DNA of 23,308 nucleotides from a virus. The notes beneath the pieces are model-generated. The model was given only the letters and a program-made list of their open reading frames with translations. It had not been told where the DNA came from and ran no database searches. The translations under genes were made by a program, and so were the position numbers. Numbering within the stretch: the first letter of the stretch is position 1; each line of letters starts with the position of its first letter. The stretch lies in IMG/VR virus record IMGVR_UViG_3300006052_000030, positions 1-23,308 of that record, one strand, 5' to 3'. This document shows positions 1,556 through 23,293 of this stretch, piece after piece.

Positions 1556-4138
1556 TTACAGTTTGAATGGCTGCGGAACTGAGGCGCGGTAGTAAACCGC
1601 GAGTCCGCTCGCTCCCGGATCCGAATCGCACTGGATCGCAAAGCTGTTGGCGGCAAAGGCCCCGGCACTCACCATCCTCGGAGTGTTCGTCGGAGTCTTG
1701 GTTCCCGGAGTCAGGTAGACCATCGTCGCGTCCATCGTGTAGGACGATGAAATCAGGTTCGGCGTGATGGTCTGCGACGTTGCGCCGCTCGCAATCGTCG
1801 TCGCCCCGGTCTTGACGACATCGTATCCGCCCTGGATCAGAGGACAGGTGCATGGGTATTCGACCACGTTGCCGATGATCGTGTACGGGTAGACACCACC
1901 ACCGGTCGGCAGTGTGTTCAGGCAGTAGCGGGTATTGTCGCTGTTCAGGAATCTGTTGTTGACGATCTGATGCGAGACGGCGGTAAGGTGGATCGCGCCC
2001 CAGCCGGTAGCGGAGCGGTCCCAGTTCTCGATCCGGTTGCCCTCGATGATGTTGTCGCGGTCGGACGAATAGATGCCTGCGCCATTGCATCCGATGATCT
2101 GGTTGTTCGCGCAAATGTTGCGCCCGCTGTAGACGCCGACTCCGCTGTTGAACGCGATACCATGTCCGCCGCAATTCTCCAGCCGGTTCCCGGTGATGAC
2201 GAACTCGCGTTGCAGCGGCCAATACGCGGATGCTCCGTCGATTGCCAGACCGGTGGTATTGGTGAACGTGCCCTGCATCCATGCGGTCGTGATCGTTCCG
2301 GCAGACAATGCGCCAGCCCAGTTGCAGGTCGTGTTCGTAGTGACCGTGACGGAGCGCGTCTCGCCATCCGAGAAGGTGGTGTTATAGGTTCCGTTCGGAA
2401 CGCCCACCGACAGCGTGCCGGTGGTGAGTCCGGCGACGTTGCCGGTGAAGGTGACCGTCGACATGGGGTCGCAGTTGCGAAGATTGTTGCCGGTCCAAGT
2501 TGCGCGGAAGCATTCCGTGCCGCGCAACGGAGACTGGTATCCCTGAGAGTCGTTGCCGGTGAACGTCGCGCCCATGCACCGCTGCATCTTGATGCCGCGC
2601 TGCGAGGGCGGGGTCGGAAAGACTGCGGCTCCCTGGAAGATTTCCCACGCTTTGGTGCCGTTGAGGATGTTGCCGTTCGCGACAGCGGCCTCGCAGTAGG
2701 TCATGTCGCAGCCGAAAAACGCCCCCATGATCGAGTTGTTCTCAAGGGTCGCGGAGCGAAAGCCCTGGATGTCGATGTTCGCTCCAGGAGAGCCGCCCAC
2801 GGTATTGCCGATGTTCTCCTCGAAAACGCAACTGCGGACCTTGCAGTCGATGCCGTAGAAAATTCCCAGGAGGTCTGGCTGGTTCGCTCCGTTCACGTTG
2901 AAGTTGAAGAACCGCATGTTCTCCATCAGGACGCTGCGATAGATGCAGGCGCGAATGCACATTCCGAGCGAGCCTGGGGTCGTGTACAGGGAGCCATCCC
3001 AGTCCACGTTCCTGAACCAGCAACGCTGCCAGAGCGTAGTGCTGTTGTTGTAGAGGTTGCAGGAGATCGTTCCCCAGTAGATCCAGGCGACCCCGCCATC
3101 CGAGATGCCGACGTTCGGCGTGGTGCCTGTCGGGCCTCCCGCGCCAGCCGAGGTGCCAGGTATGGCGCAGAAGTAGATGTTGCCGCCGTTGGTGACGAAG
3201 TCACCGTAAACGTAGGCAGTCGTGGCCTGCCAGTTGAAGTTGCCGGTCGAGTTCGTATTGCTGATGTAGTCGAACGGCAGCGGCCGGTCGAGCGTGAGGA
3301 TCAGCCCGGTGATCTGCTTGATCTGCGCCCAGAAGAACGGCAGGCCAATCGACCCCTGAATGCAGATCGTCTGCCCGACAGCGAGACTCGCAGTACTGGC
3401 TACCGTGACGAACAGGGTTCCCTTGAGCGCAAGCGTGACGTTGGTCGTCGCATCGGGAGCGCCGATGTTCCGGTAAAGCTGCCCTGCCACCGAGGGACGC
3501 ATGACGCAGCCCTGGCCGTCGAAGATGATGTCCTTCGGCAACGCGATATTGCCGCTGTACTTGTAGGTGCATTGCGGGCCTCCGCCATACACCAGGACAT
3601 TGGAGTTGAATGCGTTCTGGATCGCGGTCGTGGAGTCCGTGGCACCACTCGGATCGGCACCGTACCTTCTCAGGTCTCCATACGGGTAGCCGTAGTTCGT
3701 CGGCGTGACGCCAGCGGTGATCTCCGTGGCGCTCCGCATGAACGTCTGGTCGATTGCGTAGATGACCGATGTCGGAGCAAGCGAAGAGTCGGTGACGAGT
3801 CCCGTGAGGGATCCGACAGGAGCAATCAGGTTATCGACGCTCCAGATCGGGTTCGTCGGAGGGTCGCTGTCGGTCGATGGCGCGAGGACGATCTTGTACG
3901 CAGTCCCTGGCGGCATCCAGATGCCGATGCTCGCGCCTGCTGAATTCGCGGTCTCGCCGCGAGCGTTCAGGATGCAGGGATTCGGGACGGGAGTCGTGCC
4001 GGTGCTGTCGGTATAGACGCTCTGCTTGATCGTCGTGCCGGCCTGATAGAAGAACAGCTTGCCACCGACGAGCGCGGCTCCGGTGTTGCTGTCCTTGAAG
4101 GCCCAAACCGGCAGATAACCTGAGACGACTGTGGTCAT
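1556..4138 (-). CDS. Tailspike with right-handed beta-helix and inserted carbohydrate-binding-like modules
   Basis: An 860-residue receptor-binding protein. Residues 1-102 form a virion-attachment domain (LFFYQAGTT, PCILNARGE, DSDPPTNPIWSVD) shared with the tail fibre just upstream. At about 154-176, DLRRYGADPSGATDSTTAIQ is the start signature of pectate-lyase-type beta-helix tailspikes. Repeated Asn-rich rungs (such as ENNSIMG, TGNRLEN, EGNRIENW) continue to about residue 740. Two modules interrupt the helix: one at 303-356 (WQATTAYVYGDFV, GGPTGTT, ISDGGVAW) that resembles CBM5/12-like modules common in phage fibres, and one near 557-620 built around GTYNTTFSDGETRSVTV. The C terminus is beta-rich and ends PQPFKL. 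It probably binds or cleaves a surface polysaccharide, but catalytic residues cannot be assigned by eye. No clear Shine-Dalgarno precedes the ATG; translation may be coupled to the fibre gene, which ends one base upstream. Confidence 0.85.
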   Translation of the reverse strand: MTTVVSGYLPVWAFKDSNTGAALVGGKLFFYQAGTTIKQSVYTDSTGTTPVPNPCILNARGETANSAGASIGIWMPPGTAYKIVLAPSTDSDPPTNPIWSVDNLIAPVGSLTGLVTDSSLAPTSVIYAIDQTFMRSATEITAGVTPTNYGYPYGDLRRYGADPSGATDSTTAIQNAFNSNVLVYGGGPQCTYKYSGNIALPKDIIFDGQGCVMRPSVAGQLYRNIGAPDATTNVTLALKGTLFVTVASTASLAVGQTICIQGSIGLPFFWAQIKQITGLILTLDRPLPFDYISNTNSTGNFNWQATTAYVYGDFVTNGGNIYFCAIPGTSAGAGGPTGTTPNVGISDGGVAWIYWGTISCNLYNNSTTLWQRCWFRNVDWDGSLYTTPGSLGMCIRACIYRSVLMENMRFFNFNVNGANQPDLLGIFYGIDCKVRSCVFEENIGNTVGGSPGANIDIQGFRSATLENNSIMGAFFGCDMTYCEAAVANGNILNGTKAWEIFQGAAVFPTPPSQRGIKMQRCMGATFTGNDSQGYQSPLRGTECFRATWTGNNLRNCDPMSTVTFTGNVAGLTTGTLSVGVPNGTYNTTFSDGETRSVTVTTNTTCNWAGALSAGTITTAWMQGTFTNTTGLAIDGASAYWPLQREFVITGNRLENCGGHGIAFNSGVGVYSGRNICANNQIIGCNGAGIYSSDRDNIIEGNRIENWDRSATGWGAIHLTAVSHQIVNNRFLNSDNTRYCLNTLPTGGGVYPYTIIGNVVEYPCTCPLIQGGYDVVKTGATTIASGATSQTITPNLISSSYTMDATMVYLTPGTKTPTNTPRMVSAGAFAANSFAIQCDSDPGASGLAVYYRASVPQPFKL
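3071..3232 (-). other. CBM5/12-like module inserted in the tailspike
   Basis: Encodes tailspike residues about 303-356. Pattern: Trp followed by TTAYVYGD, then NIYFCAIPGTSAGAGGPTGT, then an acidic-Gly turn and AWIYWG. The aromatic positions and the GGPTGT motif match a module I recall in many phage tail proteins. It sits between beta-helix rungs rather than at a terminus. Confidence 0.5.
3833..4138 (-). repeat. Copy 2 of duplicated virion-attachment domain (tailspike N terminus)
   Basis: Tailspike residues 1-102. It shares with copy 1 the MTT start, LF-YQAGTT, the LN-RGE motif, an aliphatic IW-P segment, YK-VLA and DPPTNPIW-VD, with the same order and nearly the same spacing. Recognisable at the protein level; the nucleotide sequences have diverged except for short blocks. 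Confidence 0.8.
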
Positions 4139-4139
4139 T

Positions 4140-5363
4140 TTAGATCAACGGGTAGGTGAAGGACGCGCCGAAGCCAAAGCCCTTGACTCCGGTATTGGTG
4201 AACCCGGAACCGTTCGGCGGTGCCGTGCCGATTCCAAAGGTGATGTTCCCGGAGAGTCCGAATGATACCGACCCGAGTGCGGTATTGTTGTTGTCGATCA
4301 CCCATACCGGAACGCGGGCACCGCCGCCGGTCGATGGCTGGAGGTTCGCCGGAAGATTGGTGATCGTCATCGATGTCGAATTGCTGGTCCCGGTGCCGTT
4401 GATGCTGAAGGCCATCGTCACCAGATTGCCGATCTTCGTCCACAGGATGCTTCCTGTCGGAGCCACCGAGAATCCGGTCCATGACGGATTGAAGCTGCCG
4501 CTGCTGAACGAGGACTGACCGGCAGTCAGCAGGATCCACTTCAACGATTGCTGAACCACCGTTGCGATGGTGCCGTTGGTGAGCGCACCGGCTTGAAGCG
4601 GAGAGCCATCGGGATAGACGACAGACAGCGCGCCGATGCCGTTGACGTTGAGTGTCGATGCCCCGGTGTTCGTTACGTTCGGCACCCAGTAGATCACGAT
4701 GCCGTCGTTGTAGGAGCCGTACTGCGCGGAATAGGTCAGCGCATAGGTGTTCGCCGGGCCGGTCGAGACTCCGCCATACAGCGACGGGTAGACGTTGCCG
4801 GAAGAGACCAGCAACCACTGCCCACCCTTGTACATGATCACCGCAACCTGGTTCGCGAGGATGTTGTTCGACGCGAGCGCGGTGCCGTCCTGACGGACGA
4901 TGTTGGTGATGCCGTAGTTGTTGACGTTGATCGTGCTGGGTCCGGTATTGTTGTGCGCCGGGATCCAGTAGATGACGATGCCGTCAGTCAGGGCATTGAA
5001 GTTCGATACGAAGTTGATGACATACGCATTGGCGATGCCGGTGTCGACTCCGCCATAGAGTGTGATCAACTGCGAACTGACGATGCTGTCGACCGTCCAG
5101 ATCGGATTCGTCGGCGGGTCCGTGTCGGTCGCACTCGCAAGGACGTACTTGTACGAGACGTTCGGCGGGATCCAGAGATTGCACTCACCACGCGAGTTCA
5201 GGACCACCGGGTTGGTATTGACCGTGCCGACGCTGTCCTTGTAGCTCGAAAGCTTGGTGGTCGTTCCCGCCTGATAGGTGAACAACTGCATGCCGACGCC
5301 AGGGTTGCCATTCTGGTCCCAGGCGCGGAAGATTGGTGCAGGCGAGAGGACTTCAGTCGTCAT
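4140..5363 (-). CDS. Tail fibre / tail appendage protein with tandem repeat
   Basis: A 407-residue protein. Residues 1-92 are the attachment domain shared with the tailspike (WDQNGNPGVGMQLFTYQAG, NPVVLNSRGE, DTDPPTNPIWTVD). Residues 102-188 and 195-281 are two copies of an 87-residue unit beginning LYGGV-TG and containing DGIVIYW and STLNVN-type motifs. The C-terminal 110 residues are Gly/Ser/Thr/Asn-rich beta sequence ending in FTYPLI and would form the distal tip. It is the first gene after a 92-base gap and lies directly upstream of the tailspike (TAA then ATG, one base between). It probably mounts on the same tail site as the spike, giving the phage two receptor-binding proteins. No enzymatic motif is seen. 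The ribosome site is weak. Confidence 0.85.
   Translation of the reverse strand: MTTEVLSPAPIFRAWDQNGNPGVGMQLFTYQAGTTTKLSSYKDSVGTVNTNPVVLNSRGECNLWIPPNVSYKYVLASATDTDPPTNPIWTVDSIVSSQLITLYGGVDTGIANAYVINFVSNFNALTDGIVIYWIPAHNNTGPSTINVNNYGITNIVRQDGTALASNNILANQVAVIMYKGGQWLLVSSGNVYPSLYGGVSTGPANTYALTYSAQYGSYNDGIVIYWVPNVTNTGASTLNVNGIGALSVVYPDGSPLQAGALTNGTIATVVQQSLKWILLTAGQSSFSSGSFNPSWTGFSVAPTGSILWTKIGNLVTMAFSINGTGTSNSTSMTITNLPANLQPSTGGGARVPVWVIDNNNTALGSVSFGLSGNITFGIGTAPPNGSGFTNTGVKGFGFGASFTYPLI
4521..5060 (-). repeat. Tandem 87-residue repeat within the tail fibre
   Basis: Fibre residues 102-188 and 195-281. Aligned landmarks: LYGGVDTGIANAY with LYGGVSTGPANTY; DGIVIYWIP with DGIVIYWVP; GPSTINVN with GASTLNVN; QDGTALASN with PDGSPLQAG; QWLLVS with KWILLT. 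Such repeats usually extend the shaft or duplicate a binding unit. Confidence 0.8.
5088..5363 (-). repeat. Copy 1 of duplicated virion-attachment domain (tail fibre N terminus)
   Basis: Fibre residues 1-92, homologous by eye to tailspike residues 1-102 (see copy 2). The tailspike copy is about ten residues longer, mostly around the SAGAS segment. Confidence 0.8.
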
Positions 5364-14810: not shown

Positions 14811-16843
14811 TTAGCCTGCGACGCGAACGCCCAGCTCCGGGTACAGCTTCGCCCAGCCGTACAGCACATCGAATCGGCACGGAAGAGCGTCGTTGTTGAT
14901 CGTGTACTGTCGGACGACACGGAAGTTGATTCCGGCCTCCTCGTCCACGGCCCGAGCCGCCATGTCCACGCCACCCGGCAGATCGAGATCCGCGAAGGCG
15001 AGCGCGAGACAGTCGCGGTGCATGGCGATGCTCTGCGGCGAAACCGCATTGGCATACGCGCCGGTCGTCACGCCCCAGACCTGGATCGTCGCGGTCGCGC
15101 CGGGCTGCGCCGAGATGTTCTGGAACTGACCACCGTAGATGCCGCAGTTCGCGACGTAGAAGTCGAGCGCACCGCCAGCGGTGGACGAGTACACACCCGT
15201 CGTGCTGTTGTACGTTCCGTTCGCCAGCGTCGCGGTCGGCGGGACCACCACGAACTGCCGCTGACGGTTGGAACCGTACACACCACGGTTCTGCGGGTTC
15301 ACCGAGTACACGCCGGTCACGGTGACGATGTCGCCAACCGTGAGTCGCGGGTTCGCGGACGCAGTCCAGGTATTGGACTGGATGAGACCGCTCTGCGCCC
15401 AACCTGACGCGAGCCACGCGCTCGACGTATTGTTGATCAGCGCAGCCGAGATCGCGGTGCCGGTACCGTTGCCGTTGCCGACAGCGTAGGACACCACATT
15501 CTGGTCGAGGTACCAGTCGAATCCGAGCGTGTTCTTGCCGATGAGACCCTTGGTGTACTGCTCACCGATCTGCACCTGGGGATTGAACAGCCCCTTCAGT
15601 GCGTCCTGCATGTAGGCCATGCTGAACGGATCGAGGATCAGGACGCGGGTACCGTCACGCGGAGCGGCCTCGCCGTCGAGGACTGCACTCGCGAGGTTCG
15701 CGACCAGTGCCGACGCGGGAGGCACACCGGGCGTGCCGACAGCATTCGGGATGTTCTGGTACGCATAGACCGCACCGTCGCGGTCGATCTTGTTCGCGAC
15801 CGCCGCGACCGCCGGATTGATGATGCGCTCCTTGAAGAGATCGACCGAAGTCGCCAAGTCGGCAGTCGTGAACTGCACGTCGACGTGGAACTGGGTCGTC
15901 AACGTGACGGGAATGTACGTCTCGTTGGTGTCTTCGATGTTGAGTGCCGGGCCGGTCGTGCCGATGAAGCGCGGCGGCTTGCGGACGTTACAGGTGTAAC
16001 CGATCTTCGCGCCCGAGAGGGCGAACTGATCAGCATATTGGCGCGTATGTATTTGATTGAGATCGCTATTCCCAATCCGCCTTTCGGCGCTCTGACTCTC
16101 GCCAGAGACTAGACTATATCTTTCAGATGTGAGCCCAGTACTTCCGGGATCTGACCATGTGGACCGTTGCTTGAGAAACACCGAATTGCTTCGCGATGTC
16201 TCTCTGTTTACCTGTCGAAGCGCGAATGCCTTTCACCGTCTCATCGGTGAGTTTGGCATTCCCATGCTTAGTACCCTTGGCTTGCCGATTCTTTGAAACC
16301 TTATCGGCAATATTTTCGGCTTGGGTTCCAATTCTGAGATGTTCGATATTGACGCATGCTGGGTTGTCGCAAGCATGCATCAGAATCAAACCGTCAGGAA
16401 CTTCGCCTAATCCAGCCAAGAGCCAAGCAGCACGATGAGCAAAGACATTTTTACGCTTTGAACTCAGCGCAAAAATTCCATAGCCACATTCGTTCTTGCA
16501 GGCCGTCCATTCAATGCAGCCATTGTCTAGCTGCTTAGTCTTATCCCAAAATCTCTTCACACCCTACCCCGCGTTTCCGCATCGCTTGATGCGTACGAGC
16601 TTGCGCTCTAGTCGTTGAACCTTACTTGATTATAAATCAAGTCTTGGCTGCTGATTGCCCAATCCTCAGGATTTTTACGACTTTCGTCGTACCTTCGGCT
16701 CTAAGGGGTTTCCAGCAATTAACGGGGTTTAACGTCAACTCGACCTTAAGTTAATTGACGTGATCGGCGAACACCAGATCGTTTTCGAGAGCCATCAGGC
16801 CCTCGTTGGTGATCTGTGCGATGGTCAAAAGATTGTTCGACAC
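14811..16843 (-). CDS. Major coat (capsid) protein, P22-type fold, gene split by a group I intron
   Basis: The product is assembled from join(16754..16843, 14811..16043) on the minus strand: 30 codons plus 410 codons, 440 residues. Exon 1 starts at GTG with AGGAG six bases upstream, 17 bases after the scaffold stop, and encodes SNNLLTIAQITNEGLMALE, ending in DHVN. Exon 2 begins RQYADQFALSGAKIG, then NVRKPPRF and PVTLTTQFHVDVQF. Intron-less relatives that I recall run through N-x-x-L...VNRQYDDQF without a break, so the joined sequence restores the family N terminus in frame. P22 gp5 is 430 residues, a good fit. A longer frame that starts at 16181 inside the intron would replace exon 1 with unrelated residues and is not the mature N terminus. 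Upstream scaffold and portal genes support the call. Confidence 0.88.
16044..16753 (-). mobile_element. Group I intron (probably IA-type) interrupting the coat gene
   Basis: A 710-base intron. The conserved core elements occur in the right order on the minus strand: P-like AATTGCTGGAAACC (16707-16720), Q-like AATCAGCAGCCAAG (16643-16656), R GTTCAACGACTAGA (16607-16620) and S AAGATATAGTC (16112-16122). GACTA in R pairs with TAGTC in S to form P7. The 5' exon end CGTCAAT (16754-16760) pairs over seven positions with GTTGACG (16733-16739), making P1 with the required U-G pair at the splice site. The intron ends in G (16044). Extra hairpins near the 3' end (such as CGCC-GAAA-GGCG) fit P9 extensions. 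The endonuclease gene lies between R and S, in the P8 region. The sequence is visibly more AT-rich than its surroundings, a sign of transfer. Confidence 0.93.
16123..16560 (-). CDS. Intron-encoded HNH homing endonuclease
   Basis: 145 residues starting at GTG with GGGGTAGGG upstream. The HNH core is LILMHACDNPACVNIEHLRI (about residues 58-77), preceded by FAHRAAWLL, as in HNH_3-type homing enzymes. The N-terminal CIEWTACKNECGYGIF holds two Cys, which with the Cys pair in the core could bind a structural metal. The C-terminal TDETVKGIRASTGKQRDIAK followed by QFGVSQATVHMVRSRKYW is a helix-turn-helix that would give site recognition. The TGA stop is immediately followed by the S element of the intron. 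It would cut intron-less coat genes of related phages and so spread the intron. Codon use is more AT-rich than in neighbouring genes. Confidence 0.92.
   Translation of the reverse strand: MKRFWDKTKQLDNGCIEWTACKNECGYGIFALSSKRKNVFAHRAAWLLAGLGEVPDGLILMHACDNPACVNIEHLRIGTQAENIADKVSKNRQAKGTKHGNAKLTDETVKGIRASTGKQRDIAKQFGVSQATVHMVRSRKYWAHI
16754..16843 (-). other. Coat gene exon 1 (30 codons)
   Basis: GTG-initiated open frame preceded by AGGAG, reading SNNLLTIAQITNEGLMALE then NDLVFADHVN, and closed by an in-frame TAA immediately after the 5' splice site. Without splicing, translation would stop here after 30 residues. Confidence 0.88.
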
Positions 16844-17955: not shown

Positions 17956-18306
17956 TCAATCCTCGCGCTCGCGATACTTGGATCGCACGCGCTCAATCAT
18001 CTCTTCATGCTGTGCCTCACTGTGGTTCTGCTTGCACTTAGGGCAGGCATTCGGGTGTGCCAGCAAGGTGGGAATGTCATCTGTGTGGAACCCGTACTTC
18101 ACGCCACAGGTAGCATGGATGGAGTTCTTCGGAACCCCATTGGAATCCCTCATGCCTATCGCATGATGGACATAGGAATCCTCCAGCATCCCCTTGGAAT
18201 CGCGGCGCACCACGACAGGCGAAGTCTTCTCCTTCTCCTCATATCCAGAACGCGGTCTGGGAGTACTCGTCTCTGGAAGGTCAAGGATCGAACGGTATGC
18301 GCCCAT
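17956..18306 (-). CDS. Cys/His mini-protein C (C-G-x16-H-P-x2-C-x2-C), unassigned
   Basis: 116 residues between portal and scaffold; its ATG overlaps the portal stop (TAATG). The C-terminal half holds a motif shared with two tiny proteins on the other side of the portal: CG, sixteen residues, HPNACPKC, then KQN. Four potential metal ligands (C, H, C, C) keep identical spacing in all three proteins. The N-terminal half (YRSILDLPETSTPRPRSGYE and following) is polar, probably disordered, and unique to this copy. An acidic, basic-mixed helix closes the protein (EEMIERVRSKYRERED). No named family is recognised; a zinc-stabilised mini-domain is inferred. Confidence 0.78.
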   Translation of the reverse strand: MGAYRSILDLPETSTPRPRSGYEEKEKTSPVVVRRDSKGMLEDSYVHHAIGMRDSNGVPKNSIHATCGVKYGFHTDDIPTLLAHPNACPKCKQNHSEAQHEEMIERVRSKYRERED

Positions 18307-20453
18307 TATTCCACCCTGTGACTCGCCACGTCGGCGTCCTCGAGTGCTTCCCTGGTCATTTCCTTCTCATGCGCCTGCGCGACGTGCGTCTGGAGGATGC
18401 TCCCGGCCTGATTGATCTCCGCCACGTCGTGAGCGGTGATCGCACGCACGGTCGTGTCGTGAACCTTGACGTGAGCGTTCACGTCGGTGTCGCGCTTCTT
18501 GGCGTCGGTCTGGATGATCGTGCGGTGCGTGGCCGCAGCTTCCTTGAGAGCCACCCGGTCGGTCTCGCCCTTCTGCTGCGTCTCGATGTTCTGGTGACGA
18601 CCCTTGAGTTCCAGTTCCAGGGCCATGCTCTTCTGGCCTTCCTGCTGAAGCTGCTGCTGGAGACCCTTGATCATCATCTGGTACTTCGGCGGGCAGTCGC
18701 TGTCCTTGTCGATCTGCGCGGTGGGCATGTTCGCGGCCATGCGGTCGGCAATCGTGTCCGACTCCGGGAAGTCCATCGAACGCACCACGATGTCGCCCGC
18801 AGCCGCAGCCACAGTCTCGCCAAGAGGCGTGCCGAGAAGGGTCATCATGTTGATGGCACCCTCCTCGCGCTTCGTCTGGTACGAAGGCCCGCTGTCCACC
18901 ACGCTGTCGTAGAGTCCGCCGGTCAGGTCGTTCTTGACCTTGCCCTCGGCGGTCTTCTCGTTGATCTTCACGGTCCTCGGAGTGCCATCGTCACCGATGA
19001 TCCGCTGCATGCGCTCCGTGTCGTAGAAGTGCGGGATCAGGTCGCTGATGATGTTCCCCACCTGACGCAGCGAGCGCGACAGGTTGTCGGAAAAGTCGAA
19101 GTGCGAGATGTCCGACATGCCCTGCCGCTTCTTGATGGCGACACCGGAAATCACCTGTCCCTGCTCGTCCTGGCCGGGATCGTTCGGCATTCCGGCGACG
19201 GCGAGGAAGTCCGACTTGGTGCTGTCGCCCCACTCCGCAAAGCCTGTGTTCGGCTGCGGCGGCGGCTGGCGCTGCGGAGGCGGGGCCATCGTGCCGTCCG
19301 GGTTCTGTACCGGCTTGTACGGCAACGCGACGATGGGCTTGCGGTTGGCGTCGCGCCACGCATCCTCATGCCCCTCCATCTGCCCCTCGGCAATCATCCA
19401 GGGAGCCTTGGGCATCAGCGCATAGACTTCGGTCTTGGCAGTCGTCGCGTAGTTGTACATGCGCGCCGGGTCGCGGAGGTCGCGCACCATGCCCTTGCGC
19501 TCGATCCGCCCATTGACGTTCGTCTGGCGACCGTACACCGGGACCACGGGAATGAACTTCCCCGGCCACTCACGCTTGTCGAGAACCTTCGCGGCAGACA
19601 GCAGGAACCACTGCACCTTCTTGCGGTACGTCGGGCGCTCGCGAATGACGTACAGACCGTCCTTCGCCATCTGCTCCTTGGTCGGCATCTCGCTGCTGTA
19701 CAGCGAGCCGTACACACCCTGATGGTCGCCAACCAGATACAGGCGCTCCGGGACCAGCTTGATGCGCCAGTACTCCGCAACGCGGATCTCTTCATTGTTC
19801 GACCAGTCCTTGATGTCCTCACCGGCACCGACGAACTGCCAGCCCTTCGGATCACGGTCACCGTACCGCTGCTTGTACTCGTCCCGGCGCATCCAGTGCG
19901 AGGCGACACACCACTGCGCGTCCGATCCATCCGGCATCGTTGAGGCGGGATCGAGGTAGTAGGTGAACTGGTTCGGGACAGCCTCGATGGTCAGATCCTG
20001 GTCGAAGCTGCGCTCGTCAATGTAGCGCGAGCCGACCCGGATGTAGCCCCAGCCAGACCGCACCGCCGACTCGACGGCAGTGTCGTAGGCATAGTCGGCA
20101 TTCGATGAGGTCTCGATGTGCCGCATCAACCCGTCACGGACCTTGGCGGTCTCGATGTCGGTGTCCTTGACCGGGTGGAACTTGATGCGCGGGCGGTTCT
20201 CGCGCAGCGCATTGGTCACGCGGCGCACCATTGCGTCGGTGATGTTGACGGTCAGGCACGGTCTCGCGTCGCTGTCGCGGTCCCGCTTGATGTCCACAGG
20301 CCACTGGTCGCCATTGGCGAAGCGAAGGTCGTACAGGGCTTCCTTGCGGTTCTCTGACTCGGCGTCGGCGGAAAGCTTGAGGCGCGCAGCGCACTCGGTG
20401 ATCACCTGTGGGTCGGTGTCTTTCTCTTTCTCGTCGGAGAGGACCGCAGACAT
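18306..20453 (-). CDS. Portal protein, P22 gp1-type
   Basis: 715 residues, close to the 725 of P22 gp1. The N terminus is charged, followed by ALYDLRFANGDQWP, then RPCLTVNITDAMVRRVTNAL and RENRPRIKFHPV, the family's opening pattern. SGWGYIRVGSRYIDERSFDQ, PNQFTYYLDPAS, WCVASHWMRRDEYKQRYGD and ISHFDFSDNLSRSLRQVG continue it. The last 150 residues are a long Gln/Glu/Ala/Lys-rich helix, corresponding to the crown/barrel region. It forms the dodecameric vertex through which terminase packages DNA and to which the gp4-like adaptor binds. Start: ATG overlapping the upstream stop (TGATG). Terminase upstream and scaffold downstream agree. Confidence 0.9.
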   Translation of the reverse strand: MSAVLSDEKEKDTDPQVITECAARLKLSADAESENRKEALYDLRFANGDQWPVDIKRDRDSDARPCLTVNITDAMVRRVTNALRENRPRIKFHPVKDTDIETAKVRDGLMRHIETSSNADYAYDTAVESAVRSGWGYIRVGSRYIDERSFDQDLTIEAVPNQFTYYLDPASTMPDGSDAQWCVASHWMRRDEYKQRYGDRDPKGWQFVGAGEDIKDWSNNEEIRVAEYWRIKLVPERLYLVGDHQGVYGSLYSSEMPTKEQMAKDGLYVIRERPTYRKKVQWFLLSAAKVLDKREWPGKFIPVVPVYGRQTNVNGRIERKGMVRDLRDPARMYNYATTAKTEVYALMPKAPWMIAEGQMEGHEDAWRDANRKPIVALPYKPVQNPDGTMAPPPQRQPPPQPNTGFAEWGDSTKSDFLAVAGMPNDPGQDEQGQVISGVAIKKRQGMSDISHFDFSDNLSRSLRQVGNIISDLIPHFYDTERMQRIIGDDGTPRTVKINEKTAEGKVKNDLTGGLYDSVVDSGPSYQTKREEGAINMMTLLGTPLGETVAAAAGDIVVRSMDFPESDTIADRMAANMPTAQIDKDSDCPPKYQMMIKGLQQQLQQEGQKSMALELELKGRHQNIETQQKGETDRVALKEAAATHRTIIQTDAKKRDTDVNAHVKVHDTTVRAITAHDVAEINQAGSILQTHVAQAHEKEMTREALEDADVASHRVE

Positions 20454-20698
20454 CAGCCAGAACCGTCCTTCGCGCCCTTCGTCTTTCCCTGCATGGCCTC
20501 GGTGATCTTCTGCTTGCAGGCTTCGCAGGCAGTCGGGTGCGAGTAGAACGCTCCGGTGTGATTGGTGAGGCTCTTGCCACTCTCACCGCACAGCGTGGAA
20601 TTCATGTCGTGAGCGAAGTGCAGGGTGTCGTTGGTGCGGGCCTGGGACTGCACGCCGATCCTGCGGTTCTCCATGCGCTTCGAATTGCTCTTTGGCAT
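20453..20698 (-). CDS. Cys/His mini-protein B (C-G-x16-H-P-x2-C-x2-C), unassigned
   Basis: 81 residues, wedged between mini-protein A and the portal with TGATG overlaps on both sides. After a basic N terminus (MPKSNSKRMENRRIG) comes LHFAHDMNSTLCG, sixteen residues from CG to HPTACEACKQK, and a Lys/Gly-rich tail. The HxxHD-x5-CG segment is nearly the same as in mini-protein A, and the C-G-x16-H-P-x2-C-x2-C spacing is exact. Basic ends suggest nucleic-acid or procapsid contact, but that is inference. No named family is recognised. Confidence 0.78.
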   Translation of the reverse strand: MPKSNSKRMENRRIGVQSQARTNDTLHFAHDMNSTLCGESGKSLTNHTGAFYSHPTACEACKQKITEAMQGKTKGAKDGSG

Positions 20699-20913
20699 CA
20701 GCGTTCCTTTCTTGCGGCTGCGGCTTCGCCTGCGTAATCAGCGTCAGACTGTGCGCGAACAGCCTTCTGACACGACTTGCATCCGGCGGGATGCCTGTAG
20801 AGGATTCCAAGATTGTTCGTCATGGCATCACCTTTGGTGCCGCAGATCGGCGTACTCAGGTCATGCGAATAATGGATAGGCCCGTCGGTTCTTCCTGAAG
20901 TTAGCGTTCCCAT
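20698..20913 (-). CDS. Cys/His mini-protein A (C-G-x16-H-P-x2-C-x2-C), unassigned
   Basis: 71 residues; the ATG follows the large terminase stop with no gap. It contains IHYSHDLSTPICG, then sixteen residues to HPAGCKSCQKA, followed by an Ala/Arg-rich charged helix. It is the shortest of three paralogues. The core is about 40 residues, consistent with a single zinc-bound knuckle or treble-clef-like fold, though no structure family is recognised. Confidence 0.78.
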   Translation of the reverse strand: MGTLTSGRTDGPIHYSHDLSTPICGTKGDAMTNNLGILYRHPAGCKSCQKAVRAQSDADYAGEAAAARKER

Positions 20914-22353: not shown

Positions 22354-22615
22354 CGTCCATGTCCTCCAGCGGACGCTTCACGTCAAGCTCGCGTGGGCAC
22401 AGCGACGCCACGATCTTCAGGTAGGCCGCAGGCTCGCTCAGTCGCGTGACCTGAATGACAGATGCCCCATGCTGTTCGAAGTCCTCATGGAGCGCCTGGA
22501 GGAATGCCTCGGTCAACTTGTTGCGCGAACCCTTGGGACGACCGGCGGGATTGCCGCTTTGGCCGGGCTGCCAAGGAGGCTTGAGGAAGTCCAGCTTGCG
22601 AAGCGGTGTACTCAC
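22253..22615 (-). CDS. terS: Terminase small subunit candidate (DUF5681-type)
   Basis: 120 residues starting at a GTG that overlaps the GroES-like stop (GTGA). The N-terminal segment, WQPGQSGNPAGRPKGSRNKL, is the hallmark of DUF5681-type proteins, which commonly sit before large terminase genes and are thought to bind DNA. It is followed by helices (TEAFLQALHEDFEQHG, SEPAAYLKIVASLCPREL) and an acidic DMDDAELRAAIDALQRF segment, as in small terminases of this class. It would recognise the packaging site and load DNA onto the large subunit. Direct evidence is motif and position. Confidence 0.82.
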   Translation of the reverse strand: MSTPLRKLDFLKPPWQPGQSGNPAGRPKGSRNKLTEAFLQALHEDFEQHGASVIQVTRLSEPAAYLKIVASLCPRELDVKRPLEDMDDAELRAAIDALQRFVAIGPLDGSASGGGSETTQ

Positions 22616-23013
22616 GGTGCAATTTCACCGACGTTCTGATGCACCGCAGCAACGTCCTTCTCGCTCGCCACGATCACGTCCTCACCGTTGAGGCAGACGC
22701 GGGTGAAGGCGTAGCCGCTGTCGTGTTCCTGTCCGCCGAGTTCGACCACGTCACCGATCTTCACCTCGGTGGGGCGGAAGTGCTTGGACTGGTGACGCTT
22801 GCTGCGGTCTCGGTTGTAGATCCACGGGTACTCTCCGGGGCCGACTGCCATCACCGTGCCCAGGAAGTTGCCCTGTCTGGCGGCGATGATGATCTGGGAG
22901 AGTTTCACGGGGAGGGGCCTGACCACGATCCGGTCGCCCATTGGCTTGAGGGATCCCTCCACGAACTCGACCCGCTTCGGGTTGAGGCTGGTACCGGACT
23001 TCTCAAGATGCAT
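22612..23013 (-). CDS. GroES-like co-chaperonin
   Basis: 133 residues from the favoured ATG at 23013 (GGAA seven bases upstream, short overlap with the previous gene); an ATG at 23040 would add nine residues. The cpn10 pattern is clear: LKPMGDRIVVRPLP, then a loop with the hydrophobic triplet III, then LGTVMAVGPGEY, VKIGDVVELGG, and NGEDVIVASEKDVAAV. III could serve as the GroEL-binding tripeptide of the mobile loop. An insertion of about 20 basic residues (NRDRSKRHQSKHFRPTE) occurs where cellular GroES has its roof region. Such proteins in phages (T4 gp31 being the proven case) help the host GroEL fold the coat protein. The location one gene before terminase puts it in the head-assembly operon. 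Confidence 0.82.
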   Translation of the reverse strand: MHLEKSGTSLNPKRVEFVEGSLKPMGDRIVVRPLPVKLSQIIIAARQGNFLGTVMAVGPGEYPWIYNRDRSKRHQSKHFRPTEVKIGDVVELGGQEHDSGYAFTRVCLNGEDVIVASEKDVAAVHQNVGEIAP

Positions 23014-23293
23014 TGGGTAGTTCCGGGTGGAATGCGCCATTGATGGCGGTCGAGATCTTGTCCACGTCCGCGACCTTCCAGTCCTGCGTCTTCTGGTAGC
23101 TCAGGGCAATGTGATCCATGTTCCCGCCGCAGTCAGCATGCTCCCTGTACCAACCGTCTACGTCCTGCGGGCGCGGAGCGCCATAGTAGCCGGTGCCACG
23201 CCTCCGACCGATGCACAGGGACTGCTTCTCGGTGGCGTGATAGCGGCACACCAGGAAGATCCGGTTGGTGTCCTCGGGAAAGATGTCGCTCAC
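23003..23293 (-). CDS. Hypothetical protein with Cys/His residues
   Basis: 96 residues starting at GTG, with AGG and AGGA upstream. It contains IFLVCRYHATEKQSLCIG, an aromatic Gly-rich loop, WYREHADCGGNMDHIALSY and a charged C-terminal part. Cys and His (VCRYH, SLC, EHADC) could bind a metal, but spacing differs from the three mini-proteins near the portal. I recall similar small phage proteins (VCRYHAT...H-x-x-C-x-G-x-DH) without a known function. It ends inside the start of the GroES-like gene. Confidence 0.72.
   Translation of the reverse strand: MSDIFPEDTNRIFLVCRYHATEKQSLCIGRRRGTGYYGAPRPQDVDGWYREHADCGGNMDHIALSYQKTQDWKVADVDKISTAINGAFHPELPNAS

Follow-up and report, generated by a model that had tools for sequence, protein, structure and literature searches.

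A probable mobile group I intron interrupts the major coat gene of an uncultured P22-type podophage

The window, by which we mean the whole stretch of 23,308 bases analyzed here (IMG/VR virus record IMGVR_UViG_3300006052_000030), comes from an uncultured P22-type podophage. Its minus strand carries a series of terminase, portal, scaffold, coat and head-closure genes recognized by Pfam and PHROG matches, and the P22 type is indicated by those of the coat (PF11651 and phrog_283), the portal (PF16510), the terminase (PF03237) and the scaffold (phrog_8865).

The coat gene lies in two pieces, both on the minus strand. Exon 1 (16754-16843) has a GTG start preceded by AGGAG at 16854-16850 and comprises 30 codons ending in DHVN; exon 2 (14811-16043) opens with RQYADQF and has 410 codons plus the stop, the ORF that contains it matching Pfam P22_CoatProtein (E 4.3e-22) and the phrog_283 major head protein (E 9.5e-56). 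The 710 nt between them (16044-16753) begin with a TAA in the coat frame at nucleotide 1 and end with a G at 16044. Joining the exons gives VN-RQY within a single open frame of 440 codons, collinear with intronless homologues, the insertion falling between Asn30 and Arg31 of the coat protein. In the alignment exon 1 by itself is also collinear, and gap-free, with the corresponding part of uninterrupted homologues. When compared with 28 intronless relatives it showed 332 differences at third codon positions and 80 at second ones, with 258 synonymous versus 119 non-synonymous codons, a coding-type pattern drawn from non-independent pairs that share ancestry and not specific to the window's own branch.

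A preliminary description of this DNA had proposed that a group I intron at 16044-16753 splits the coat gene, and had suggested an Rfam search as a check. We ran cmscan at curated thresholds, where the gathering score of RF00028 (Intron_gpI) is 50 bits; the family was found at 16808-16090 on the minus strand with 66.9 bits (E 3.1e-15), covering the full model (1-253), and was the sole match within the window. A piecewise local search recovered the intron as two matches below the cut-off, of 47.6 and 18.6 bits. The boundaries follow from exon continuity, P1 and the terminal G. The internal guide sequence GTTGACGT (16732-16739, minus strand) pairs with the end of exon 1 to form P1 (CGTCAAT/GTTGACG), a helix of 8 bp in all with the U.G pair at the splice site, and when the first 60 nucleotides of the intron were shuffled 2000 times, an equally good P1 arose once. 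On the same strand, P3 consists of ACCCCGT (16722-16728) and GCGGGGT (16566-16572), paired over 7 bp; P7 is formed by ACGACTA (16609-16615), whose pairing part GACTA (16613-16609) makes an exact 5-bp match to TAGTC (16116-16112); and P8 joins GGGTGTG (16558-16564) to CACATCT (16125-16131) in the predicted fold. P10 is limited to 3 contiguous base pairs. The elements listed in the preliminary description, that is the 30-codon exon with its immediate TAA, P1, P7, the terminal G and the restored reading frame, were all recovered as described; the strand was not given there, and a 145-residue ORF located in P8 had been overlooked.

The unconstrained fold of the intron core was more stable than all of 200 shuffled sequences (z = -6.1), in a calculation where the ORF stretch of the P8 loop was swapped for a 4-base linker, which favours P8 by design. 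It contains P1, P3, P4, P5, P6 and P8, with two hairpins between P7 and P3 and three more that follow P7; a small hairpin is placed over the P7 3' strand, the program being unable to form the P3/P7 pseudoknot. We take the two hairpins between P7 and P3 to suggest subgroup IA. By the sequence tests applied, the insertion is a group I intron.

The ORF that fills the P8 loop (16123-16560, minus strand) encodes a predicted HNH homing endonuclease of 145 amino acids, matching Pfam HNH_3 (PF13392, E 1.2e-10) and PHROG HNH families down to E 4.1e-27. Residues H42, H62, C64, D65, N66 and C69 were invariant in an alignment of 6 related HNH proteins. The model predicted from a 6-sequence alignment (pLDDT 86, pTM 0.62) is helical in its C-terminal part, and its top fold match in the PDB was weak, to I-HmuI (1u3e; E 7.9e-3, TM 0.34); a PDB sequence search at E 0.1 detected no solved relative, and a profile search returned just two weak matches, to the helix-turn-helix part. 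The P8 5' strand holds the GTG start codon of this ORF, the P8 3' strand overlaps its end, and a GGGG 6 nt upstream of the start lies in the P3 3' strand, so the folded ribozyme should cover both start and GGGG. Folding of the intron would in this way hide these signals and hold nuclease output low. Two relatives of the protein (L262 and L264, at 2453-2926 in each contig) lie some 1 kb downstream of a P22-type coat gene that is uninterrupted; these are apparently separate genes and may represent a link between free-standing and intron-borne forms.

To place the intron among related phages we collected coat loci from IMG/VR with four coat queries, the best 80 of each being taken in overlapping lists that favour uninterrupted genes, together with 4 loci from genome contigs and phage records (42 with a match, 40 listed, two opened). 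Among the matches listed, 292 of 387 loci carry an uninterrupted full-length coat gene (259 distinct sequences), L262 and L264, which came from an endonuclease search, being counted with them; 28 are interrupted, truncated or copies of the window's phage, and 67 had no coat match. Some of the 28 are informative in part: L030, L037, L175 and L381, truncated at the far end, are uninterrupted from the gene start, L033 is uninterrupted from residue 26 onward, and L035 and L380 begin past sites A and B, described below. The uninterrupted homologues thus provide empty sites for the intron. A near-identical intronless partner of the window's phage was not found among the matches listed, where the highest coat identity of the window to another row of the coat tree was 82% (intronless L007).

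At least 11 distinct introns, the window's included, were found in these coat genes, at five sites within the first ~90 codons: site A, between VN and RQY (window and L254); site B, 7 nt downstream of site A (L017, L047, L248, L323, L332 and L373); site C (L029); site D (L083, which is MW202674.1); and site E (L361). The intron of L323 is also present in L324 and L325 (99.9 and 99.7% over 715 columns), and L327 corresponds to its last 468 nt, the contig beginning there. Interrupted rows made up 4 of the best 80 for the first coat query (L003, from the window's phage, L017, L029 and L047), 0 of the best 80 for each of the second and third, and 8 of the best 80 for the fourth (L254, L323, L324, L325, L327, L332, L361 and L373). 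The remaining routes were the intron motif for L248, an endonuclease query, which first retrieved L254, and the phage records for L083, the only two-piece coat among the 40 rows listed there; none of the 4 genome-contig loci was interrupted. The GenBank annotation of MW202674.1 presents its related interrupted coat gene as two 'P22 coat protein' CDS, illustrating how annotation can split such genes. In the window, likewise, the ORF covering exon 2 begins at GTG 16181, within the intron, as the preliminary description had anticipated for a standard gene caller.

In all eleven introns exon 1 ends in U, the intron ends in G and P1 measures 6 to 8 bp; the boundaries were picked to keep the coat frame, so the terminal U and G are partly a matter of choice. 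Shuffles with a P1 as good numbered, per 2000, 1 for the window, 6 for L254, 12 for L248, 18 for L017, 19 for L323, 20 for L332, 24 for L373, 29 for L047, 66 for L083, 70 for L361 and 87 for L029, and for the last three the P1 evidence is weak on its own. Pairing between guide and exon is not perfectly specific: the window's guide pairs over 7 bp with exons at site B, those of L017, L047, L323, L332 and L373, and for the L029 exon the guides of L323, L332 and L373 are as good as its own, at 6 bp. P10 reaches 7 contiguous base pairs in L017 and 2 or 3 in the other nine introns. The pairing of P3 and P7 is preserved despite two-sided changes among the coat introns, as in P7, which is GACTA/TAGTC in the window versus GATCA/TGATC in L254, and P3 varies in sequence from intron to intron. 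RF00028 scores were above the cut-off for L003 (66.8), L029 (65.3), L047 (59.7) and L248 (59.6) and below it for L332 (34.9), L373 (33.6), L017 (27.6) and L254 (26.8); no match at E 0.1 was obtained in L323, L324, L325, L327 or L361, and no group I match in L083. For the introns lacking such a match the group I label is based on P1, P7, the terminal G and, except for L083, P3. In L047 (2656-2671), exon 1 has ACG where the window and most homologues compared have GTG, TTG or ATG; an AGGAG is well placed upstream, and possible explanations are an ACG start, an error in sequencing or decay of the start codon.

Two types of endonuclease without detectable mutual similarity occur in the coat introns, along with introns that lack an ORF, and endonuclease similarity mostly tracks the insertion site, not the phage. 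At site A, the HNH proteins of the window and L254 are 59% identical and their coat exons 2 are 45% identical. At site B, L017 compared with L323, L332 and L373 shows 52-57% identity in the HNH and 45-48% in the coat; the nucleases of these four are of a different type from the window's, matching PHROG HNH and endonuclease VII families (seen with L017), and are sited before P7, the ORF probably lying in P6. Conversely, pairs with introns at different sites can have close coats, namely window/L017 (81%), L017/L029 (88%) and L254/L323 (80%), with nucleases that give no meaningful alignment; the window and L029, also at different sites, share 79% in the coat and 43% in the HNH. The rule of one type per site is broken by L248, whose HNH at site B is window-like (40%). 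On a FastTree coat tree of 249 rows, built without the first ~90 residues and unable to separate gain from loss, the 11 intron rows correspond to 11 changes of state. We disfavour a single ancient insertion passed down with the phage, since coats that are close to each other have introns at different sites, with nucleases that mostly do not align; different versions of the intron appear to have entered the P22-type coat family repeatedly and at more than one position.

Contig L017, whose intron at site B is 675 nt long, has very close intronless relatives and so appears to record a recent event. Upstream, over 189 nt, L014 and L008 match it at 98.9 and 98.4% identity, and over some 3 kb downstream at 99.6 and 99.4%; a base-by-base alignment was made with six intronless contigs (L008, L011, L013-L016), L014 ranking first among them in total score. 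In the 37 nt before the site and the 238 nt after it, the sole differences between L017 and L008/L011 are at -5, +2 and +5, all of them synonymous; with the L017 bases P1 and P10 are both of 7 bp, versus 4 and 2 with the intronless bases. At the overall L017/L008 mismatch rate, three or more differences in the 12 guide-pairing positions have a p near 6e-5, a value that rests on 12 positions picked after seeing the data. L013-L016 have in addition a non-synonymous three-base change relative to L017 at +6 to +8, and intronless L015 shares the L017 base at -5. Both co-conversion from a donor and later adaptation of the exon fit these flank differences, and either would imply a functioning guide. 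We also considered that the Asp to Ser codon change 6-8 nt downstream of site B (L013-L016 versus L008/L011) might confer resistance to homing, but the evidence is not good, as Ser is found at that position in L023-L026 too.

Taken together, these findings make it very probable, in our view, that the element splitting the major coat gene of this uncultured P22-type podophage is a mobile group I intron. The intron RNA would fold around P3-P9, its guide GTTGACG would pair with the end of exon 1, and the intron would excise itself; the ligated exons, with Asn30 next to Arg31, would encode a normal coat protein of 440 residues. During co-infection the HNH protein most likely cleaves or nicks the corresponding site of coat alleles that lack the intron, and repair of the cut allele would copy the intron in. 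Splicing, nuclease activity and homing are steps that we infer from the sequence for the window intron.

The alternative that survives best, although we judge it unlikely, is that the intron acts as a regulator, its slow or conditional folding setting the timing or level of capsid expression, an effect that the preliminary description had proposed for intron folding, to the benefit of the phage. The immediate in-frame stop would make coat output depend on excision, and together with the conserved exon 1 it suggests that coat synthesis depends on splicing; moreover, with the HNH start in P8 and the GGGG in P3, an interplay of folding with translation is to be expected, for the nuclease at least. 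However, the large share of uninterrupted coat genes among the matches listed (292 of 387 loci) indicates that the phage group does not generally need an intron for capsid expression, and 11 changes of state for 11 intron rows on the 249-row tree fit sporadic gain and loss. Given the HNH homing endonuclease in P8, a mobile selfish element seems the more economical reading.

Less probable still, and in our view very unlikely, is that the intron is dead and unspliced, the coat being translated without exon 1 from an internal start. GTG 16181 could serve, as an open frame of 456 codons runs from it past the end of the intron into exon 2. Against this, exon 1 retains its start codon, the AGGAG and a conserved protein sequence, the core pairings are intact and so is the HNH frame; we therefore discarded a coat start at this GTG on the grounds of exon 1 conservation and the intact core. 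In L029, furthermore, the coat frame has a stop just before exon 2 with no ATG, GTG or TTG between them, so starting within the intron would not work for all of these genes. An assembly artefact or chimera, conceivable for an uncultured virus record known here from assembly alone, is extremely improbable given that a second contig (L003, also retrieved as L244 and L245) has identical junctions and that 10 further introns of the same signature interrupt other coat genes. An intein was ruled out, as the insertion opens with an in-frame stop.

That second contig, IMGVR_UViG_3300027911_000040, has the sole other copy of the exact intron among the matches listed, and as it is 100% identical to the window over 4977 bp it does not constitute an independent case. 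It is 34.7 kb long and both starts and ends inside the interrupted coat gene, as would be expected of a circularly permuted assembly of the same phage.

Beyond the probable mobile intron of the window itself, we put forward tentatively, and with somewhat more doubt than belief, that the 5' part of P22-type coat genes is time and again contested by mobile introns whose nucleases mostly follow the site. If so, the coat gene would be a favoured target for nuclease-armed introns, these would also cripple co-infecting intronless rivals, and the guide RNA would co-evolve with synonymous sites of the coat gene. The coat alleles with and without introns, including the set that is more than 99% identical, offer a natural experiment on the cost or gain of a self-splicing intron in the gene of an abundant phage protein and also bear on a possible role of intron nucleases as weapons between phages.

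Group I introns carrying an HNH nicking endonuclease, I-HmuI or I-BasI, occur in the DNA polymerase gene of SPO1-like phages. The window shares with them the combination of group I intron and HNH; the host gene differs and similarity is low. Few phage capsid introns were found in print. One is that of mycobacteriophage LittleE, where, according to the available part of the source, splicing in the major capsid gene was demonstrated both at the RNA level, through RT-PCR and sequencing, and through the N-terminal sequence of the protein (PMC3706429). As in the window, the insertion lies in the major capsid gene, exon 1 ends in U, the intron ends in G and an endonuclease ORF is present; LittleE is a different phage with a different host, its intron is about 819 bp and is described as 'most likely' group I (PMC3706429). 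Its ORF is on the opposite strand and is LAGLIDADG-like according to the text and HNH according to a figure legend in those portions of the paper (PMC3706429), unlike the HNH ORF of the window, which lies on the coding strand in P8. The lactococcal phage Tuc2009, as cited in the same excerpts, also has a group I intron in a phage capsid gene, that of the capsid subunit (PMC3706429). In PhiPA3, the HNH protein gp210, encoded in a putative group I intron, is reported in the accessible text to nick the homologous gene of a co-infecting phage (PMC11620839); its target is an RNA polymerase gene, whereas the predicted HNH of the window sits in a coat gene. Group I introns likewise interrupt essential genes of the Jug phages, where the sections at hand give support from metatranscriptome reads for the splicing of 37 of 76 predicted introns in three genomes; these are jumbo gut phages, with terL, nrdD and DNA polymerase among the example genes (PMC12363816). 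Among the literature matches listed, which leave subscription journals mostly uncovered, we found no report of introns in P22-type coat genes. Capsid-gene introns of phages are thus already known, and the interesting part is what appears to be the repeated, site-linked invasion of one coat family.

A core motif derived from a coat intron, AATTGCTGGAAACNCCTTAGAGCCG, was present in 16 stretches of 15 viral contigs. P22-type coat genes account for 3 of the 15, one of them from the window's phage, and in 5 others a major head protein ORF follows downstream: L238 and L239 (phrog_1357), L240 (phrog_267), and L251 and L252 (SU10 MCP). The motif therefore adjoins major head-protein genes in 8 of 15 contigs, P22-type included, which is suggestive only. 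Elsewhere it accompanies a terminase (L242), a DNA polymerase III alpha (L250) and a Sak4-like gene (L247), the upstream sequence of L243 being closely like that of L247. The gene next to the motif in L249, which L237 resembles, gave no Pfam match and only PHROGs of unknown function, and that in L241 was assigned to no family.

Several other genes of the window deserve mention. Three small ORFs around the portal gene (17956-18306, 20453-20698 and 20698-20913, minus strand) share a sparse pattern of H, CG, T, HP and CxxC with 11 invariant columns; they have no Pfam match and perhaps encode small metal-binding proteins. Two adjacent tail-fibre-like genes (1556-4138 and 4140-5363, minus strand) are 36% identical over 207 columns in their N-terminal parts, as if two receptor-binding proteins were mounted on one adaptor. 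The minus-strand ORF at 22612-23040 has a Cpn10 (GroES-like) match (E 1.6e-5) and may encode a co-chaperonin near the terminase genes. At 76-651 and 147-392 on the minus strand, a longer ORF encloses, in another frame, a short one with a lipobox-like LTTGC, an arrangement that resembles an Rz/Rz1 spanin pair, and a VanY-type peptidase ORF (760-1449) is located close by.
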